A DNA stretch of 64,000 nt, taken from contig CP003940.1 in assembly GCA_000317655.1 (NCBI GenBank), positions 806,001 through 870,000 on the forward strand. Reading direction: 5' to 3'. The position numbers were made by a program, and so were the translations under genes. Below are positions 4,129 through 47,918 of the stretch, piece by piece. The stretch comes from Cyanobacterium stanieri PCC 7202 (GTDB lineage Bacteria; Cyanobacteriota; Cyanobacteriia; Cyanobacteriales; Cyanobacteriaceae). How positions within the stretch are numbered: position 1 is the first letter of the stretch; each line of letters opens with the position of its first letter. The notes beneath the pieces are model-generated. The model was not told the DNA's origin. It was given only the letters and a program-made list of their open reading frames with translations, and searched no databases.

Positions 4129-6627
4129 ATGAGTGGAGAGGGTAGAAAATCCCCTGATTGGGCAAGAATAGAAAGGGCGTTGTCGGTGGAGAGGGAATAT
4201 GGTTATAAAAATCTGAAGGGAAATCAATATCGCTTCCATGAGTTTCTCTGTCTTAGTTTTGGGGGTATTCCTCCTGTGCTAAATTTGATGATTGCTTTTA
4301 AGTGGCAAAAAGTGGCGAAGGATTTTGCGGAGTATCCTCGACTAACTTTACAGGAAAAAAAAGATTTGATCGATTATGTGGAGAATTTCATTGATGAGGT
4401 AAAGGAAAAACAAAAGGAAGAAGCACAAAGAAAGGAGACGATAAAAGAGGATAATATAATACCTTTCCCTTCTAAGGTGGAAACTGTCACTGTTACTCCC
4501 AAGGTAAAGGAAACTGTTGAAAAGATTACTTTAAATAGTCCTGTAATTAATTTAAAGTGTGTCAATAATCGACAAAATAAGTTGTTGGAAAAGTTGGGTA
4601 TTTATCGGGTTAGGGATGTTTTATTTTACTATCCTCGGGAGCATATTGATTATGGTAATAAGATTGCCATTAAGGATTTGGAGGTAGGGGAAACTGTTAC
4701 GGTGATTGGGAAGGTGAAAAAATGTTCTTGTTTTAGTAGTCCTAAAAATAAAAAACTTACTATTTTGAGTCTTGTTATTCGAGATAAGACAGGAGACTTA
4801 AAAATAAGTCGTTTTTTTGCGGGAAATTATTTTAGTAGTAGGGGATGGCAGGAGAAGATGAAGCGCTCTTATCCTATGGGGGCGTTAATTGCGGCTTCGG
4901 GGTTGGTGAAGGGAAATAAGTATGGTATCACCCTTGATAATCCTGAATTTGAGGTTTTGGATTCGGCTGGGGATAATATTAACTCTTTGAAAATAGGTCG
5001 TTTGCTGCCTGTATATTCTCTCACCGAAGGGGTGGCGGCGGATTTAATTCGTAAGGCGGTGGTGGAGTGTTTACCAACTCTCTCGGAAATTGATGATCCT
5101 TTACCTGTTAATCTTAAAAGACAGTATAGCTTAGTTGAGTTACAAAGGGCGATCGCCCATATCCATTACCCAGACAATCAAAAACAACTAACAGACGCTA
5201 GAAGAAGGCTAATTTTTGACGAATTTTTTTATTTACAACTGGGCTTCTTAGAAAGAAAAAAACAAGACAAGCAAAACCGCCAAGCCTCCCCCTTCATCCC
5301 CCAAGGAAAACTCATCGAAGAATTTAACAAACTCCTGCCCTTCCAACTCACCGATGCCCAACAAAGAGTAATCAACGAAATCGAAGCCGACTTAGAATCA
5401 TCCTCCCCCATGAATCGTCTAGTGCAAGGGGATGTAGGCTCAGGAAAAACCATCGTCGCCGTATTCGCCATCCTTGCAGCCCTCCAATCAGGGTATCAAG
5501 CAGCCCTCATGGCACCCACCGAAGTATTAGCCGAACAACACTATCGCAAGATAGTCCAGTGGTTTAACCTGCTCCATTTGCCCGTAGAATTGCTCACAGG
5601 GTCAACCAAAACCGCTAAACGGAGGGAGATCCATTCCCAACTCCAAAGCGGTGAATTACCCCTTTTAATCGGCACCCACGCCCTAATTCAAGATCCCGTC
5701 AAATTCCGTAACCTAGGTTTAGTCGTTATTGACGAACAACATCGCTTCGGGGTACAACAACGCGCCCGTCTTTTAGCCAAAGGAAAAGCCCCCCATGTGC
5801 TTACCATGACAGCCACCCCCATCCCCCGCACCCTCGCCCTCACCCTCCACGGTGACTTAGACGTAAGCCAAATTGACGAACTTCCCCCTGGACGACAACC
5901 CATTCAAACTACGGTATTGGCAGGAAAACAGCGCACCCAGGCCTATGAATTAATCAAAAGGGAAGTTGCCCAAGGCAGACAGGCTTATGTAATCTTTCCC
6001 ATGATTGAAGAATCAGAAAAATTAGATGTAAAAGCCGCCGTAGTTGAACATCAAAAATTTAGCGAGAAAATCTTTCCCGATTTTAATGTGGGCTTACTCC
6101 ATGGGCGTATGTCATCAGACGAAAAAGAAGCCGCCCTCACCGCTTTTCGGGATAACCAAACCCAAATAATCGTCTCCACCACCGTTATCGAAGTAGGGGT
6201 TGACGTACCCAATGCCACGGTAATGTTAATTGAAAATGCCGAACGTTTTGGCTTGTCACAACTGCATCAGTTGAGGGGTAGGGTAGGCCGTGGCAGTCAT
6301 AAATCCTTTTGTTTACTCATCAGCGGTAGTAAATCCCCCGATGGGGTACAACGGTTAAAAGTGTTGGAACAGTCACAGGATGGCTTTTTCATCTCAGAGA
6401 TGGATTTAAGGTTAAGGGGGCCTGGGGAGGTGTTAGGCTCTCGTCAATCGGGTTTGCCTGATTTTGCCCTAGCGAGTTTGGTAGAAGATCAAGAAGTGTT
6501 GGTTTTAGCGAGGGATGCGGCGGAGAAGATTTTGTTACAGGATAAGTATTTGCAGGATGGCTCTAGTTTAAAAAATGAGTTGGCAAGACGTTATAAAAAG
6601 CTGATTGGGGCAGAAATGTTGACTTAA
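4129..6627 (+). CDS. recG: ATP-dependent DNA helicase RecG
   Basis: An 832-residue superfamily 2 helicase that remodels stalled replication forks and Holliday junctions. Residues 1-150 are an N-terminal extension of the kind found in cyanobacterial RecG. An OB-fold wedge domain follows (YYPREHIDYGNKIAIKDL, about 165-185). The helicase core has Walker A GDVGSGKT near residue 434, the RecG-type DEQHRFG box near 535, MTATPIPRTLAL, and the C-terminal QLRGRVGRG motif. The size is slightly above the roughly 690 residues of enterobacterial RecG because of the extension. It is transcribed alone, away from the toxin-antitoxin pair and before a MITE-like element. The ATG at 4129 is preceded by an in-frame region with no better start. 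Confidence 0.97.
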   Translation: MSGEGRKSPDWARIERALSVEREYGYKNLKGNQYRFHEFLCLSFGGIPPVLNLMIAFKWQKVAKDFAEYPRLTLQEKKDLIDYVENFIDEVKEKQKEEAQRKETIKEDNIIPFPSKVETVTVTPKVKETVEKITLNSPVINLKCVNNRQNKLLEKLGIYRVRDVLFYYPREHIDYGNKIAIKDLEVGETVTVIGKVKKCSCFSSPKNKKLTILSLVIRDKTGDLKISRFFAGNYFSSRGWQEKMKRSYPMGALIAASGLVKGNKYGITLDNPEFEVLDSAGDNINSLKIGRLLPVYSLTEGVAADLIRKAVVECLPTLSEIDDPLPVNLKRQYSLVELQRAIAHIHYPDNQKQLTDARRRLIFDEFFYLQLGFLERKKQDKQNRQASPFIPQGKLIEEFNKLLPFQLTDAQQRVINEIEADLESSSPMNRLVQGDVGSGKTIVAVFAILAALQSGYQAALMAPTEVLAEQHYRKIVQWFNLLHLPVELLTGSTKTAKRREIHSQLQSGELPLLIGTHALIQDPVKFRNLGLVVIDEQHRFGVQQRARLLAKGKAPHVLTMTATPIPRTLALTLHGDLDVSQIDELPPGRQPIQTTVLAGKQRTQAYELIKREVAQGRQAYVIFPMIEESEKLDVKAAVVEHQKFSEKIFPDFNVGLLHGRMSSDEKEAALTAFRDNQTQIIVSTTVIEVGVDVPNATVMLIENAERFGLSQLHQLRGRVGRGSHKSFCLLISGSKSPDGVQRLKVLEQSQDGFFISEMDLRLRGPGEVLGSRQSGLPDFALASLVEDQEVLVLARDAAEKILLQDKYLQDGSSLKNELARRYKKLIGAEMLT

Positions 6628-43715: not shown

Positions 43716-44288
43716 TTACCAACTCCTAGGCTCAAAACCATCCCCATTAAGGATACCCACCGTTTCCCCTGCCTGTGCCAACACAAATAACCCTTGACGA
43801 TAAGCATACTTATCCACTCCCCCCTCCAACTCAATTCCTGCCACTGCCCCATACAACTGCTTCTCTTTATACTCAGGAAAAAACTTCCTAAATTCCTTTA
43901 AATCTTCCACAAATTCCTTCACATCTTCTACACTTAAACTGCTCTTAATTTCCACCACCAAAACATGATTTTCATTGGTCACTAAAACATCTATTTCCAA
44001 CGTTTTATTATCTAACTTTTTCTTGACTCTTTGGGAGACTTGATGCACAGGAATACCACGACTAGCAAAAATAGTCTCACAGGCAGGTGCCACCATATTC
44101 TCCACAAAACGCCCCCATCTACCGCCGAGCGCCCCTATTTCCTTACTCAATCGTTTAATTTGTTTATCCGTCTCCTTAAAACGTCTATCAGTCTCTTGAG
44201 ATTGCTCTTTTAATAGTTGCTCAGTCTCCTTTTGAGCTTCTATCAACTCACCCAATAATCTCCAAACATCATCTGCTGTGGTAGCCAT
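43716..44288 (-). CDS. Coiled-coil plus PD-(D/E)XK nuclease-like protein, copy A
   Basis: A 190-residue protein of the DUF3782-like group common in cyanobacteria. Residues 17-55 are a coiled coil made of 7-residue units (EQSQETDRRFKETDKQIKR). The C-terminal domain has VENMVAPACETIFASRGI, LEIDVLVTNENHVLVVEIKS (Asp at about 100 and Glu-x-Lys at about 112-114), the D-(E)xK pattern of restriction-like nucleases. It is a tandem duplicate of the gene at 44494-45108, with almost the same DNA downstream of the coil. No target DNA or partner is known. Both lie in an area with repeats and an unusual radical SAM locus. Confidence 0.78.
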   Translation of the reverse strand: MATTADDVWRLLGELIEAQKETEQLLKEQSQETDRRFKETDKQIKRLSKEIGALGGRWGRFVENMVAPACETIFASRGIPVHQVSQRVKKKLDNKTLEIDVLVTNENHVLVVEIKSSLSVEDVKEFVEDLKEFRKFFPEYKEKQLYGAVAGIELEGGVDKYAYRQGLFVLAQAGETVGILNGDGFEPRSW

Positions 44289-44493: not shown

Positions 44494-45108
44494 TTACCAA
44501 CTCCTAGGCTCAAAACCATCCCCATTAAGGATACCCACCGTTTCCCCTGCCTGTGCCAACACAAATAACCCTTGACGATAAGCATACTTATCCACTCCCC
44601 CCTCCAACTCAATTCCTGCCACTGCCCCATACAACTGCTTCTCTTTATACTCAGGAAAAAACTCCCTAAATTCCTGCAAATCTGCCACAAATTCCTTGAC
44701 ATCTTCCACACTTAAACTACTCTTAATTTCCACCACCAAAACATGATTTTCATTGGTCACTAAAACATCTATTTCCAACGTTTTATGATCTAACTTTTTC
44801 TTGACTCTTTGGGAGACTTGATGCACAGGAATACCACGACTAGCAAAAATAGTCTCACAGGCAGGTGCCACCATATTCTCCACAAAACGCCCCCATCTAC
44901 CGCCGAGCGCCCCTATTTCCTTACTCAATCGTTTAATTTGTTTATCCGTCTCCTTAAAACGTCTATCAGTCTCTTGGAAACGTTTATCCATTTCTTGAGA
45001 TTGCTCTTTTAATAGTTGCTCAGTCTCCTTTTGAGAAACCACCAACTCAGCTTGTTTTTTAGTCACCTCTGCTAAGATTGCCCAAACATCATCAATAGTC
45101 GTCGCCAT
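44494..45108 (-). CDS. Coiled-coil plus PD-(D/E)XK nuclease-like protein, copy B
   Basis: A 204-residue paralogue of copy A. It differs in the first 25 residues and by 14 extra residues in the coiled coil, where an additional unit (MDKRFQETDRRFKETDKQ) is present. From KQIKRLSKEIGALGGRWGRF onward the two are almost identical, including the D-ExK nuclease-like core and the end NGDGFEPRSW. The DNA offset is constant (778 nt) through the conserved part. This is a recent tandem duplication or gene conversion. Family members often occur in several copies in cyanobacteria; the role is unknown. Confidence 0.78.
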   Translation of the reverse strand: MATTIDDVWAILAEVTKKQAELVVSQKETEQLLKEQSQEMDKRFQETDRRFKETDKQIKRLSKEIGALGGRWGRFVENMVAPACETIFASRGIPVHQVSQRVKKKLDHKTLEIDVLVTNENHVLVVEIKSSLSVEDVKEFVADLQEFREFFPEYKEKQLYGAVAGIELEGGVDKYAYRQGLFVLAQAGETVGILNGDGFEPRSW

Positions 45109-45199: not shown

Positions 45200-46357
45200 C
45201 TAACTGGGGATCATTTGATTTTCTAAAGAAGAATCATGGGTAATATCCAAAGAATTTAACAGAAGTTTACCAGAATCAGATTGCTCAATTTCATTGATCA
45301 TAAACTGAATCATGGGTTTGGCTATCGTACATTCTAATTTTCCATTCTCATCGTAAACCCTCTCGCTAGAAATAGCTTCAGCAATAGGTAACTGATTACA
45401 ATGACCGTAAAAAGAACAACTATGACATGTTTCTAAACGACTTTGACGAATAGCAACAGTGTTTTGATATTCAGGAGCTTTTCTAATCTCAGATAATGGT
45501 TGTTTGAAAATATTACCCATAAAACCCTCTGGGGAATAAGCATCTCCGTGATCATAAGTATCCCCATTTGTATTAACAATATAGACCCATTCCTCTACTT
45601 GGGGATCATAAATCGCCTTTCTTCCTCCCGTTAAATAACTAACGGCGGCCTTAAAATAATCCCATAAAGGTAAAACCCGAATATTACTAGGATTCGCAAA
45701 CTGAGCCTTGGCTACTTCCTGAAAAGCTGTCAAAGTTTCTTGATGACTAATAAGAATTGGTTCTATACGAGCAGGAGGGTCAACATGGCTAAAAATAGGT
45801 AACATTCGATAGTTAATTCTTAACCTATTATAAAAATCATAAATCCGCAAAACATGCTCTATATTAGCTCCATGAAGTACTGTAATGGCACCACCAAAAC
45901 GAATATTTCTATCAATTAATCTTTGTAAATTATCTAAGACTCTATCTTGAGTATCTCTGCCCTTTATGTCAACTCTTTGATTACCAAAAACATCAAAGGA
46001 AATCCCTAAAGAAATATTTAACTCCTGTAACAAATCGAGAGTCGCATCAGAAATCTGTACCAAGTTACTCTGTACCCCATTAGTATATTCAATACCTGCG
46101 GCATCCAGATGTTTACGTTGTAATTCTCGAAAAGAACGTAAATAACTGTGGGGTAAAAGTAATGCTTCTCCGCCGTGGAGAATAAAGTGAGGAATTCCGA
46201 TTTGTTTGGGTTTAGATTGTATATAAGTTACAAGATGACGAAAAAAGAAATCTAGTCCTTCTAAGGGCATTCTCTCCTTATGACTTAATTCTTCGTATTC
46301 ATAGCAATAATTGCAGCGTAAGTTGCACAATTTGCTCAATTTCATTACAAAGTGCAT
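45200..46357 (-). CDS. Radical SAM/SPASM peptide maturase
   Basis: A 385-residue enzyme with a very strong ribosome site (TAGGAGGAAT) 5-6 nt before its ATG. MKLSKLCNLRCNYCYEYEEL holds the CxxxCxxC cluster motif (C11, C15, C18). HFILHGGEALLL is the GGE segment, and a C-terminal SPASM region has ETCHSCSFYGHC (C311, C314, C320) and a later C343 for auxiliary clusters. The plan matches maturases of ribosomal peptides (FxsB, XyeB and GrrM groups), which crosslink aromatic residues to nearby side chains. Two paralogous proteins with Trp-rich tails are encoded just upstream in the same direction and are the likely substrates. That pairing is inference. Confidence 0.85.
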   Translation of the reverse strand: MHFVMKLSKLCNLRCNYCYEYEELSHKERMPLEGLDFFFRHLVTYIQSKPKQIGIPHFILHGGEALLLPHSYLRSFRELQRKHLDAAGIEYTNGVQSNLVQISDATLDLLQELNISLGISFDVFGNQRVDIKGRDTQDRVLDNLQRLIDRNIRFGGAITVLHGANIEHVLRIYDFYNRLRINYRMLPIFSHVDPPARIEPILISHQETLTAFQEVAKAQFANPSNIRVLPLWDYFKAAVSYLTGGRKAIYDPQVEEWVYIVNTNGDTYDHGDAYSPEGFMGNIFKQPLSEIRKAPEYQNTVAIRQSRLETCHSCSFYGHCNQLPIAEAISSERVYDENGKLECTIAKPMIQFMINEIEQSDSGKLLLNSLDITHDSSLENQMIPS

Positions 46358-46526
46358 TTGATTCCTCCTATGTCAATATAGTATGAGTATTTAGGATTTG
46401 CTGAAAAAGTGGGGTCATATAGGGTATGGAAAAATAAATCAGCAATATTGGGCAGATGCTATCTAGGAATAGAAGAAGACAAGATAATTTTCTTCTACTC
46501 CTAATATTCAGTATTTTTTGCTTGAA

Positions 46527-47168
46527 CTATCTGCCGAAGTTAGGGGTAATATTACGAGAAGGTGTTTGGTTAGGATCTCTTTGAATTTGAGGATTCAAGG
46601 GTGAGGATGGATTGATAGGAGTACTGTTTCCAGAAGGTACACGGGGTCGAGGTTGAATTTGTTCAAAAGTATCTCTTACTCCAGGGCTAGTTTGTTGATT
46701 CAAGGGATTAGACCTCTCTTCGTCGTCACCGCTAGTATCTCTTTCCCAAAGCCAACCATCTCGCCAACCAGCTTCATCAAAAGGACAGTTGATCATGCAG
46801 TCATCGGCTGCTCTTTGTCTGTTGGTGATAATACCTCTTTCAAGGGTTAGTATGTCACCTCCAGAAAACATATAATATCCATCTTCAAGAGGTGTACGGA
46901 TGCCTTTGTCGTTGATTTGATAGGCTTGTGTGCCTTCAATTTTGATGGTATCAGCATTAATTTTTTCCATTTTTAAGTGGTTTAATGAAGCGGTGTCCAC
47001 TTCTGGGGAAGACTCAATAGTATGGGCAGAGGCGGACTGAATGACGTTATTACCTAACATCTGAAATAATTGACCAGCCAAACCACTCTGACTCGCAACG
47101 GAAAAACCTGTTACTGCAATTAAAGCTAGGACTATATTTTGGGAGTTGTGATGGGGAGTTTTATCCAT
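46527..47168 (-). CDS. Candidate radical SAM substrate A (leader plus Trp-rich tail)
   Basis: A 213-residue protein with no family I recognise. Residues 8-30 (NSQNIVLALIAVTGFSVASQ) are a hydrophobic segment almost shared with the next gene, so a signal or leader. A middle domain follows (YQINDKGIRTPLEDGYYMF, about 83-101). The tail has GWRDGWLWERDTSGD (W135, W139, W141) and then PGVRDTFEQIQPRPR, rich in Pro/Asn. The W-x-D and W-x-R spacing is what three-residue cyclophane enzymes act on. The gene is 169 nt upstream of the radical SAM gene. It is larger than most RiPP precursors, so it may instead be a modified periplasmic protein. Confidence 0.6.
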   Translation of the reverse strand: MDKTPHHNSQNIVLALIAVTGFSVASQSGLAGQLFQMLGNNVIQSASAHTIESSPEVDTASLNHLKMEKINADTIKIEGTQAYQINDKGIRTPLEDGYYMFSGGDILTLERGIITNRQRAADDCMINCPFDEAGWRDGWLWERDTSGDDEERSNPLNQQTSPGVRDTFEQIQPRPRVPSGNSTPINPSSPLNPQIQRDPNQTPSRNITPNFGR

Positions 47169-47315
47169 GATGTATCAATTTTGTTAAAAGCATTAGGGGA
47201 ATAATACCATATATCAAACTAAATCTCTGGGTCTGTTTTATGATGTGATACAAGGTAAATTAAGAGTAGGAAAAACTGTTTTTAATTTGCTCCTAGTCCT
47301 AATTTTTTCATTCAT

Positions 47316-47918
47316 TTACCTTCTTAAATCGGGATTGATATTATTTGGTGGTACTCGATTGGTACCGGGTTGGATTCTTTCAAAGGTATCTCTGACCCCT
47401 GGGATACCACGCTGTATTAGTTGTCTTTGCAAAGACTGATCTCCACTGGTGTCTCTGACCCATACTTCTCCTTCATTCCATCCTGGGGGTGGACCTGCAT
47501 CTGGTCCTTGTTCCCATGTATTTCCTTGCTCCCATTCATTTTGCCGTTCACCTACCATGGATCGCTGATGATGAATGATTCTACTGCCTTGGATGGTTAA
47601 TATTTCACCACTGGGAAATCGGTAATATCCATCTCGGAGTGGAGTGCGATCGCCCTCATTGGTAAGTTGATAACCTCGATTATTTTCTATGAGGATAAAA
47701 TTGGCATTGAGTTCTTGTATGCTTAGGTCACGGGTGGGGGTAGTTCTACCTTCTTCGGGACCTCTTATATTTTGAGCAGAGGCAGATCGAATTACACTTT
47801 CATCTAACGCTTGAAGGAGTTGAGTTGTTAACCCACTTTGACCCACTACAGAAATACCTGTTACTGCGATTAGAGCAACCACAACATTTTGAGAGTTGTT
47901 TTTCGGTGGTTTTTTCAT
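47316..47918 (-). CDS. Candidate radical SAM substrate B, paralogue of A
   Basis: A 200-residue protein from ATG 47918 (a longer in-frame start adds 19 basic residues and is less likely, since MKKPPKNNSQ aligns with the start of A). The leader NNSQNVVVALIAVTGISVVG, middle YQLTNEGDRTPLRDGYYRF, tail GWNEGEVWVRDTSGD and PGVRDTFERIQPGTNRV each match A. Trp residues at 129, 135, 147 and 153 sit in W-E-Q, W-E-Q, W-N-E and W-V-R triplets. It is the first gene of the three-gene run. Conserved leader plus variable Trp tail is the pattern of RiPP precursors. No experiment is known to me. Confidence 0.6.
   Translation of the reverse strand: MKKPPKNNSQNVVVALIAVTGISVVGQSGLTTQLLQALDESVIRSASAQNIRGPEEGRTTPTRDLSIQELNANFILIENNRGYQLTNEGDRTPLRDGYYRFPSGEILTIQGSRIIHHQRSMVGERQNEWEQGNTWEQGPDAGPPPGWNEGEVWVRDTSGDQSLQRQLIQRGIPGVRDTFERIQPGTNRVPPNNINPDLRR

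Follow-up and report, generated by a model that had tools for sequence, protein, structure and literature searches.

Organization of the locus

The stretch of Cyanobacterium stanieri PCC 7202 DNA analysed here (CP003940.1, 806,001-870,000; the whole 64,000-nt stretch is called the window, and its first letter is position 1) carries on its minus strand a three-gene locus in which two genes for candidate precursor proteins, S2 and then S1, precede the gene for a radical S-adenosylmethionine (SAM)/SPASM enzyme, with gaps of 147 bases between S2 and S1 and 169 bases between S1 and the enzyme (Table 1). Overall, we believe that the enzyme is probably a maturase that would form three-residue Trp cyclophanes, much as in the triceptides, on proteins that contain a small beta-domain and appear to be exported, a reading that starts from the observed pairing of the genes, the enrichment of a Trp motif, the clade and cysteine pattern of the enzyme, and the absence of Trp from precursor homologues that lack an adjacent enzyme.

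Much of this layout had been proposed in a preliminary description made from the sequence alone. The enzyme contains exactly the seven cysteines named there, spaced C11-x3-C15-x2-C18 and C311-x2-C314-x5-C320-x22-C343. Its strong ribosome-binding site is also present, in that AGGAGGAATCAA directly precedes the enzyme ATG, and no such site was found when the starts of S1 and S2 were inspected for one. S1 and S2 are same-strand paralogues, as claimed (44% identity over 197 residues, E 6e-48), and they share the RTPL-DGYY block, the GW..G..W.RDTSGD tail and the PGVRDTFE motif. Two details needed amendment: the leader is common to both proteins but has HNSQN in one of them where the other has NNSQN, and the list of Trp triplets, right for WRD and WER and for WEQ, WEQ, WNE and WVR, had omitted WLW in S1. 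Terminator-like sites occur at chance frequency, none of them within the two gaps between the genes.

Table 1. Features of the locus, in window coordinates
Feature	Position	Strand	Remarks
Radical SAM/SPASM enzyme, 385 aa	45200-46357	-	Open reading frame (ORF); PF04055 59.4 bits
AGGAGG ribosome-binding site, 6 bases 5' of enzyme ATG	46364-46369	-	
Precursor protein 1 (S1), 213 aa	46527-47168	-	
Precursor protein 2 (S2), 200 aa, ATG at MKKPPKNN	47316-47918	-	A longer ORF extends to 47975
S1 residues 1-48, hydrophobic segment ending in SASA	47025-47168	-	Putative A-x-A signal peptidase site
S2 residues 1-48, putative export/leader segment like that of S1	47775-47918	-	Export presumed
S1 residues 67-118, small all-beta domain with RTPL-DGYY block	46815-46970	-	Predicted model
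S1 core: Trp triplets WRD, WLW, WER	46740-46766	-	
S2 core: Trp triplets WEQ, WEQ, WNE, WVR	47454-47534	-	
S1 C-terminal 'follower' motif GVRDTFEQI	46656-46682	-	0/500 shuffles
S2 C-terminal 'follower' motif GVRDTFERI	47373-47399	-	0/500 shuffles

Placement and cysteine pattern of the enzyme

Pfam recognizes the Radical_SAM domain (59.4 bits) and places SPASM just below its cut-off (20.8 against 21.5 bits). Among the best 25 of the 57 matching NCBIfam models, the window enzyme reaches no cut-off: the top model is DynA (NF041298; 103.5 against 450 bits), and lower scores include sulfatase_rSAM (TIGR03942; 98.8 against 349), DarE (90.7 against 650), YhhB (NF041707; 73.2 against 445), FxsB (TIGR04269; 72.8 against 370), GrrM/OscB (TIGR04261; 70.7 against 310), AmcB (NF041718; 66.5 against 425) and XyeB (TIGR04496; 32.9 against 450). 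The four relatives that were scanned also fall below all the cut-offs listed, with DynA at 137-160 bits, and the places of clade A/B (defined below) in a genome search with TIGR04261 scored 59-81 bits. These curated scores rule out assignment to GrrM, FxsB, XyeB, YhhB, AmcB, DynA or DarE.

In a first tree of 45 proteins, the window enzyme and 33 relatives form a group with support of 100/99, outside which fall five GrrM proteins, YhhB, DarE, CbpB, a sulfatase maturase and another two rows. For a second tree, of 43 proteins, the long-branch rows (CbpB, DarE and the sulfatase maturase, with L078 and L187) were removed and Nannocystis, Polyangium and a second Nocardia added; it groups 35 rows at 100/100 against GrrM, YhhB and two others. 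Within the group, branch A/B (the window, other cyanobacteria, Bradyrhizobium and Nannocystis) is supported at 99/95, and its sister, branch C (cyanobacteria, Nocardia and Polyangium), at 96/96, or 88/66 once a Myxococcales genome is included. The deep joins are unsure owing to long rows; the enzymes of L059, L080, L045, L046 and L070 are placed by neighbours and similarity, outside the trees, and FxsB, XyeB, DynA, XncB, MscB, YxdB and HaaB are likewise absent from them. A search for FxsB in the genomes of six relatives gave no match at E 1e-30. Judged by sequence, then, the window enzyme is a member of a supported clade separate from GrrM and YhhB. Some relatives are unusually long: the frames in L068 (5977-8136), L197 and L198 span about 720-770 aa and probably include an extra domain, and the latter two lie close to each other in one genome (G607). 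On a Calothrix plasmid, a radical SAM gene (L196, 2053-3646) follows a 69-aa ORF and groups with YhhB and L036.

All seven cysteines are kept in 37 of 37 family members compared. The auxiliary cluster I (aux-I) cysteine that follows GD-x-x-x in DarE (GDVSPCD), CbpB (GDLFPCS) and the sulfatase maturase (GDVYTCD) is absent at that position from all 37 family rows, and from the five GrrM proteins and one YhhB compared; the 17 clade A/B rows have no cysteine anywhere in this stretch, and in seven clade C rows a cysteine stands at another place within it. We therefore expect a single auxiliary cluster in the window enzyme (C-x2-C-x5-C-x22-C), as in the cyclophane-forming enzymes at hand. The nearest solved structures by sequence are the sulfatase maturases 4k36 and 4k37 (E ~1e-26) and the radical SAM domain of ChlB (9gm3); ChlB is named a multiple cyclophane synthase in the title of a reference in the accessible part of PMC12636437.

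Pairing of enzyme and precursor across genomes

The C. stanieri genome encodes a second enzyme, 54% identical to the first, with a precursor directly upstream. Indeed, every one of the 19 clade A/B enzyme genes inspected has a same-strand candidate precursor upstream of it (the window, L025, L027, L028, L029, two in L030, L055-L062, L080, L089, L190 and L191), the weaker cases being L056, with a short precursor that has WKL only, and L080, with a precursor split between frames. The Bradyrhizobium candidate has just 122 aa and carries the triplets WTQ, WGQ, WAQ and WNR. In the set of 80 loci, weak partial matches at E 5e-10 or weaker (L082-L088 and L090-L134) were left out; L064, L066, L073, L044 and L047 duplicate loci already counted, the fragment L050 was unused, and L078 and L187 have no assigned precursor, an ORF with one WAE before the L078 enzyme having been set aside.

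A precursor profile, built from enzyme-adjacent precursors and one without an enzyme, was searched against 388 genomes of the order irrespective of position. Strong matches (E < 1e-10) occur in eight genomes, and all eight fall among the 15 that carry the enzyme (hypergeometric 5e-13). A further 16 genomes have weak matches only (E 5e-4 to 0.01), which we take as chance. Among the seven enzyme genomes without a strong precursor, G017, G028, G039 and G055 have enzymes of clade C accompanied by different precursors, G317 and G320 are clade C-like by their neighbours and absent from the trees, and G379 is a fragment. In a draw at the level of the phylum, which overlaps the 388-genome set, 10 of 386 genomes carry the enzyme. 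Relatives in the plasmid search are all below 60% identity (the 20 listed of 159 were at 22-26%). A viral origin was also considered and rejected, as 63 pattern matches yielded just one viral contig encoding a relative (31%), accompanied by no recognized precursor.

GrrM is present in 76 of the 388 genomes and in none of the 15 with the present enzyme (P 0.036, uncorrected for kinship). In the taxonomic family of the window (15 genomes), seven genomes in two genera carry GrrM and GrrA, three in the window's own genus carry the present system and five carry neither; a TIGR04260 search of the C. stanieri genome (G000) found no match. Replacement between GrrM/GrrA and the present system is thus possible, although these counts argue for it weakly.

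Two sets of neighbouring genes deserve mention here. Proteins that we call 'YHGS', alike by eye, lie beside the system in Calothrix, Plectonema and Bradyrhizobium (L058 7191-7652, L061 7185-7616 and L062 4656-5600), the L061 copy resembling DUF6886 weakly (18.7 bits, cut-off 27); transfer as a unit, or a role as a third component, is possible. In the window itself, the region downstream of the enzyme holds tandem DUF3782/PD-(D/E)XK-like genes (43716-44288 and 44494-45108) that are 94% identical in DNA over 556 bases, the second copy, the only one scanned, matching DUF3782 at 38.9 bits.

Architecture of the precursors

Within the first 48 residues, S1 and S2 have a stretch of high hydrophobicity (mean hydropathy 2.3-2.6 over 15 residues). 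The segment closes with SASA, whose final Ala is invariant across 15 homologues, Nannocystis included, as are just two other positions. We take SASA to be a putative A-x-A signal peptidase site, and the segment may well be an export signal. AlphaFold predicts a small beta-domain at residues 67-118 of S1, with a predicted local distance difference test score (pLDDT) of 77-87 in the blocks covering 71-120 and 49 in 61-70; a Foldseek search with the model returned no PDB fold below E 0.1. Neither S1 nor S2 comes near a cut-off in Pfam or NCBIfam, and four other precursors have no match in Pfam.

Near the C-terminus lies a 'follower' motif with the consensus x-V/A-x-D/E-x-F/L-x-x-I/L. An earlier broad regular expression had missed S1 and S2 and was replaced by a leave-one-out weight matrix, seeded with hand-picked copies of the motif, under which 27 of 46 proteins pass (43 of the 46 adjoin an enzyme and three do not). 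In two clade C loci (L068 and L079) a leader that appears by eye to be Nif11-like stands ahead of a core with the same C-terminal motif, and the motif can therefore persist despite a change of leader; it is absent from three Nif11-type proteins (two in L031 and one in L033), of which the L033 precursor, the only Nif11-type precursor scanned, passes TIGR03798. That the enzyme recognizes its substrate through this motif is a guess. Domain and core may also be multiplied, since in genome G026 (L030) both are doubled behind one leader in two precursors (77.9% over 113 aa in L030c). This locus is itself a tandem duplication, with two near-identical enzymes, four precursors and a truncated fifth, and broken gene pieces in between.

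The Trp core and its candidate acceptors

Trp and Phe were counted after residue 50 in 21 precursors adjoining clade A/B enzymes, without the frame-split L080 precursor and the truncated fifth precursor ORF of L030. The residue two places after Trp (+2) is Asp, Glu, Gln, Arg or Lys in 54 of 61 cases (33/37 in a non-redundant set) and Asn in none; shuffled sequences give a mean fraction of 0.39 (sd 0.06), and 0 of 2000 shuffles are as high. At other offsets the polar counts are 33/61 (-3), 29/61 (+1), 12/61 (+3) and 12/60 (+4), and the background in the window, from 43 ORFs of at least 150 aa with S1 and S2 included, is 82/199 for Asp, Glu, Asn, Gln, Lys or Arg at +2. Phe shows no such enrichment in A/B precursors (30/105). 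In the 22 clade C precursors, polar residues stand at +2 of Phe in 77 of 102 cases and of Trp in 11 of 13; these cores are mostly F-x-(Q/E/D/R/N), with F-x-Q runs in two Nocardia, F-x-E or F-x-D in the Myxococcales genome and W-x-D in G017, and none of them matches the A/B precursor profile (E 0.25 or weaker). The two Nocardia loci, L072 and L077 (~5400-5850), with runs of F-x-Q triplets in precursor-like ORFs beside the enzyme, amount to an actinobacterial version of the system.

The candidate acceptors in A/B precursors are Gln or Glu at 37 of 61 Trp, Arg or Lys at nine and Asn or Asp at eight. In eight GrrA precursors from relatives (two of them near-identical; one TIGR04260 hit from each of eight loci, where a regular expression had found just two proteins), the +2 residue of Trp or Phe is Asn or Asp in 57 of 63 cases and Gln or Glu in none, a contrast with a Fisher P of 3e-20 on the Asn/Asp and Gln/Glu cells when related sequences are treated as independent. 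The i+2 acceptors named in the accessible part of PMC11002830 are Asn, Asp, Arg, Ser and Ala. The dominance of Gln and Glu is therefore the main difference from GrrM/GrrA in probable chemistry. The bond could lie at C-beta or at C-gamma; for PapB, which forms thioethers, the same review describes attachment at C-beta of Asp and at C-gamma of Glu.

Homologues without an adjacent enzyme

Two precursor homologues in the C. stanieri genome (L026 and L188) and a third in a sister species (L189) stand with no enzyme beside them, and tblastn finds no enzyme remnant at any of them below E 0.5. None has a single Trp or a significant follower motif. L026 and L189 are 71% identical and keep the leader, the beta-domain sequence and Cys, and where enzyme-adjacent precursors have PLWLQYC or PMWLQYC, they have ALSAEYC or SLSAEYC. 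L188 is a 141-aa stub that matches residues 1-86 and 174-216 of the L028 precursor and has neither core nor enzyme, yet it sits between flanks that match those of the L028 enzyme locus at 92% and 75% identity. Trp is thus present in 21 of 21 enzyme-adjacent precursors and 0 of 3 without an enzyme (Fisher 0.0005, the cases not being independent), and these three cases are suggestive, short of proof, of a tie between core and enzyme. The preliminary description had named the regular occurrence of homologues without an enzyme as what would speak against its proposal; in the 388 genomes such homologues are confined to enzyme-carrying genomes and are Trp-free. Together with adjacency across phyla, the 8/8 co-occurrence and the enrichment at Trp +2, this supports its claim that the tails are substrates of the enzyme.

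Relation to known systems

The systems of the triceptides, with their 3-CyFE radical SAM enzymes (XncB, OscB, MscB, YxdB, HaaB and YhhB), as described in the accessible part of PMC11002830, resemble the present one in pairing a radical SAM/SPASM enzyme with a neighbouring precursor that carries aromatic-x-X triplets, and the enzymes compared (five GrrM, one YhhB) also lack the aux-I cysteine. The window enzyme has the CxxxCxxC motif and SPASM-type C-terminal cluster of the class, and repeated aromatic-x-X triplets mark the adjacent precursors (54/61, in candidates picked by eye). It differs in scoring under the NCBIfam cut-offs listed, in its mostly Gln/Glu acceptors and in forming a clade apart from GrrM and YhhB, the trees holding no XncB, MscB, YxdB or HaaB. 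GrrM/GrrA (OscB/OscA; TIGR04261/TIGR04260) is similar in setting, being cyanobacterial, with a hydrophobic precursor N-terminus and, in a number of genomes, a pair of precursor genes next to the enzyme. The present precursors, unlike GrrA, have no Gly-rich repeats, and 0 of 388 genomes carry both enzyme families. The secretion-type leader, which had been offered as a distinction from GrrA, does not hold as one, because GrrA precursors also start (by eye) with a hydrophobic segment; the features that set S1 and S2 apart are the predicted folded domain, the C-terminal motif and the candidate Gln/Glu acceptors.

Homologues of the 2-oxoglutarate/Fe(II) oxygenase MicC (PDB 9vkm) adjoin many sister-clade enzymes and one GrrM, and none was seen among the ORFs of the window locus or the clade A/B loci inspected. 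These MicC-like proteins, of ~260-320 aa, stand beside the radical SAM enzymes of L031, L033, L045, L046, L065, L072, L074, L076, L079 and L081 in the sister clade, and further ones beside those of L144 (GrrM) and L036 (YhhB-like). Eleven of them, aligned without L081, match MicC 9vkm at E 6e-54 with H-x-D...H kept; NCBIfam names none of the 11, and Pfam neither of the two scanned.

Proposed mechanism and alternatives

In radical SAM enzymes, an iron-sulfur cluster cleaves SAM to give a 5'-deoxyadenosyl radical. In the window enzyme, the [4Fe-4S] cluster would be held by C11, C15 and C18, and the radical would abstract hydrogen from the side chain two residues past Trp, mostly Gln, Glu, Asp or Arg. 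The resulting carbon radical would bond to the indole ring, and the last electron would pass to the single auxiliary cluster of C311, C314, C320 and C343. Two hydrogens would be lost per Trp-x-X triplet, so that S2 could carry as many as four rings and S1 two or three. In the substrate, an export-type N-terminus and a beta-domain would be followed by a disordered core rich in Trp and by a C-terminal motif that may serve enzyme recognition. Once modified, the proteins would leave by the general export route and probably function, cross-linked, outside the cytoplasm. We put the probability that the enzyme is a three-residue Trp-cyclophane maturase of apparently exported beta-domain proteins at about three in four.

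At the same time, several points weigh against this reading. Its chemistry is something we infer from sequence, and Gln and Glu are not among the acceptors named in the accessible part of PMC11002830. Precursor candidates were chosen by eye, as small upstream ORFs in which a core was often visible, so that the Trp counts are not blind, and seven of the 61 Trp, including those of WLW in S1 and of WKL in L056, have no polar +2 residue. No homology to other precursors could be detected for the Bradyrhizobium candidate (blastp E 0.08 at best, profile E 1.4). The structural model of the precursor is weak, with a mean pLDDT of 57 and a low-confidence tail. Nineteen proteins fail the follower test, and in L030a the best match precedes the domain and is not the motif proper. 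Finally, some 20 residues between the hydrophobic segment and the A-x-A site is long for an ordinary signal peptide.

A separate question is whether the product is a cross-linked protein or a small peptide cut from the precursor, such as an antibiotic or signal of the classical secreted type of ribosomally synthesized and post-translationally modified peptide. We consider the peptide the less probable of the two and still a serious contender: cores are modular, as the doubling of domain and core in L030 illustrates, and the Bradyrhizobium candidate is very short. Against this, no protease or transporter gene was recognized by eye beside the window enzyme or others of its clade, where no search by family was made. 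Moreover, because the beta-domain sequence is retained in two homologues without core Trp or an adjacent enzyme (L026 and L189), the substrate protein itself, and not just a peptide cut from it, may have a role.

It is unlikely, although worth weighing, that the same tails receive a different radical SAM modification, such as a darobactin-type ether, an aryl-alkyl crosslink of other spacing, hydroxylation or epimerization. Each of the five family enzymes scanned scores best against DynA among the NCBIfam models (103-160 bits), dynobactin and darobactin both carry Trp crosslinks (a Trp-Asn i/i+3 link in the former and a Trp-Trp ether in the latter, according to PMC11002830 and the abstract of PMC9055067, respectively), and S1 contains W-L-W. 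However, these scores lie far under the DynA and DarE cut-offs, the DarE compared retains the aux-I cysteine that the family lacks, and the polar enrichment sits at +2 and not at +3 or +4.

Thioether links to Cys, of the sactipeptide or ranthipeptide type, are very improbable and were rejected: type B precursors do have Cys near the core (C-x2-C, YCPGG-x-C), but S2 has none and S1 only two, and two homologues with no enzyme alongside lack Trp and retain Cys. Least credible of all is an anaerobic sulfatase-type maturase beside unrelated proteins, already disfavoured and here rejected despite the 4k36/4k37 and sulfatase_rSAM matches, given a score far under the cut-off, the missing aux-I cysteine, the co-occurrence of enzyme and precursor, and the absence from S1 and S2 of C/S-x-P/A-x-R, the substrate motif of sulfatase maturases.

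Implications

The literature searched holds no description of the present enzyme family, and the main triceptide papers, which lay outside that search, may describe it. We raise only tentatively the further suggestion that this is an undescribed enzyme branch, joining Trp to Gln or Glu at +2, possibly at C-gamma in place of C-beta, acting on folded exported proteins instead of small peptides and recognizing them through a C-terminal follower that survives replacement of the leader, be it a signal segment or a Nif11-like one. The window enzyme falls below every NCBIfam cut-off listed, and such models would leave it unnamed. If the proposal is true, the system would represent a new branch of crosslinking enzymes, with an acceptor unlike that of GrrM and protein-sized substrates. 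Its members occur in cyanobacteria, Nannocystis and Bradyrhizobium, to which the sister clade adds Nocardia and other myxobacteria. The system would then provide a natural set of substrates for asking how ring chemistry fits a longer side chain, and what extracellular cross-linked tails do.

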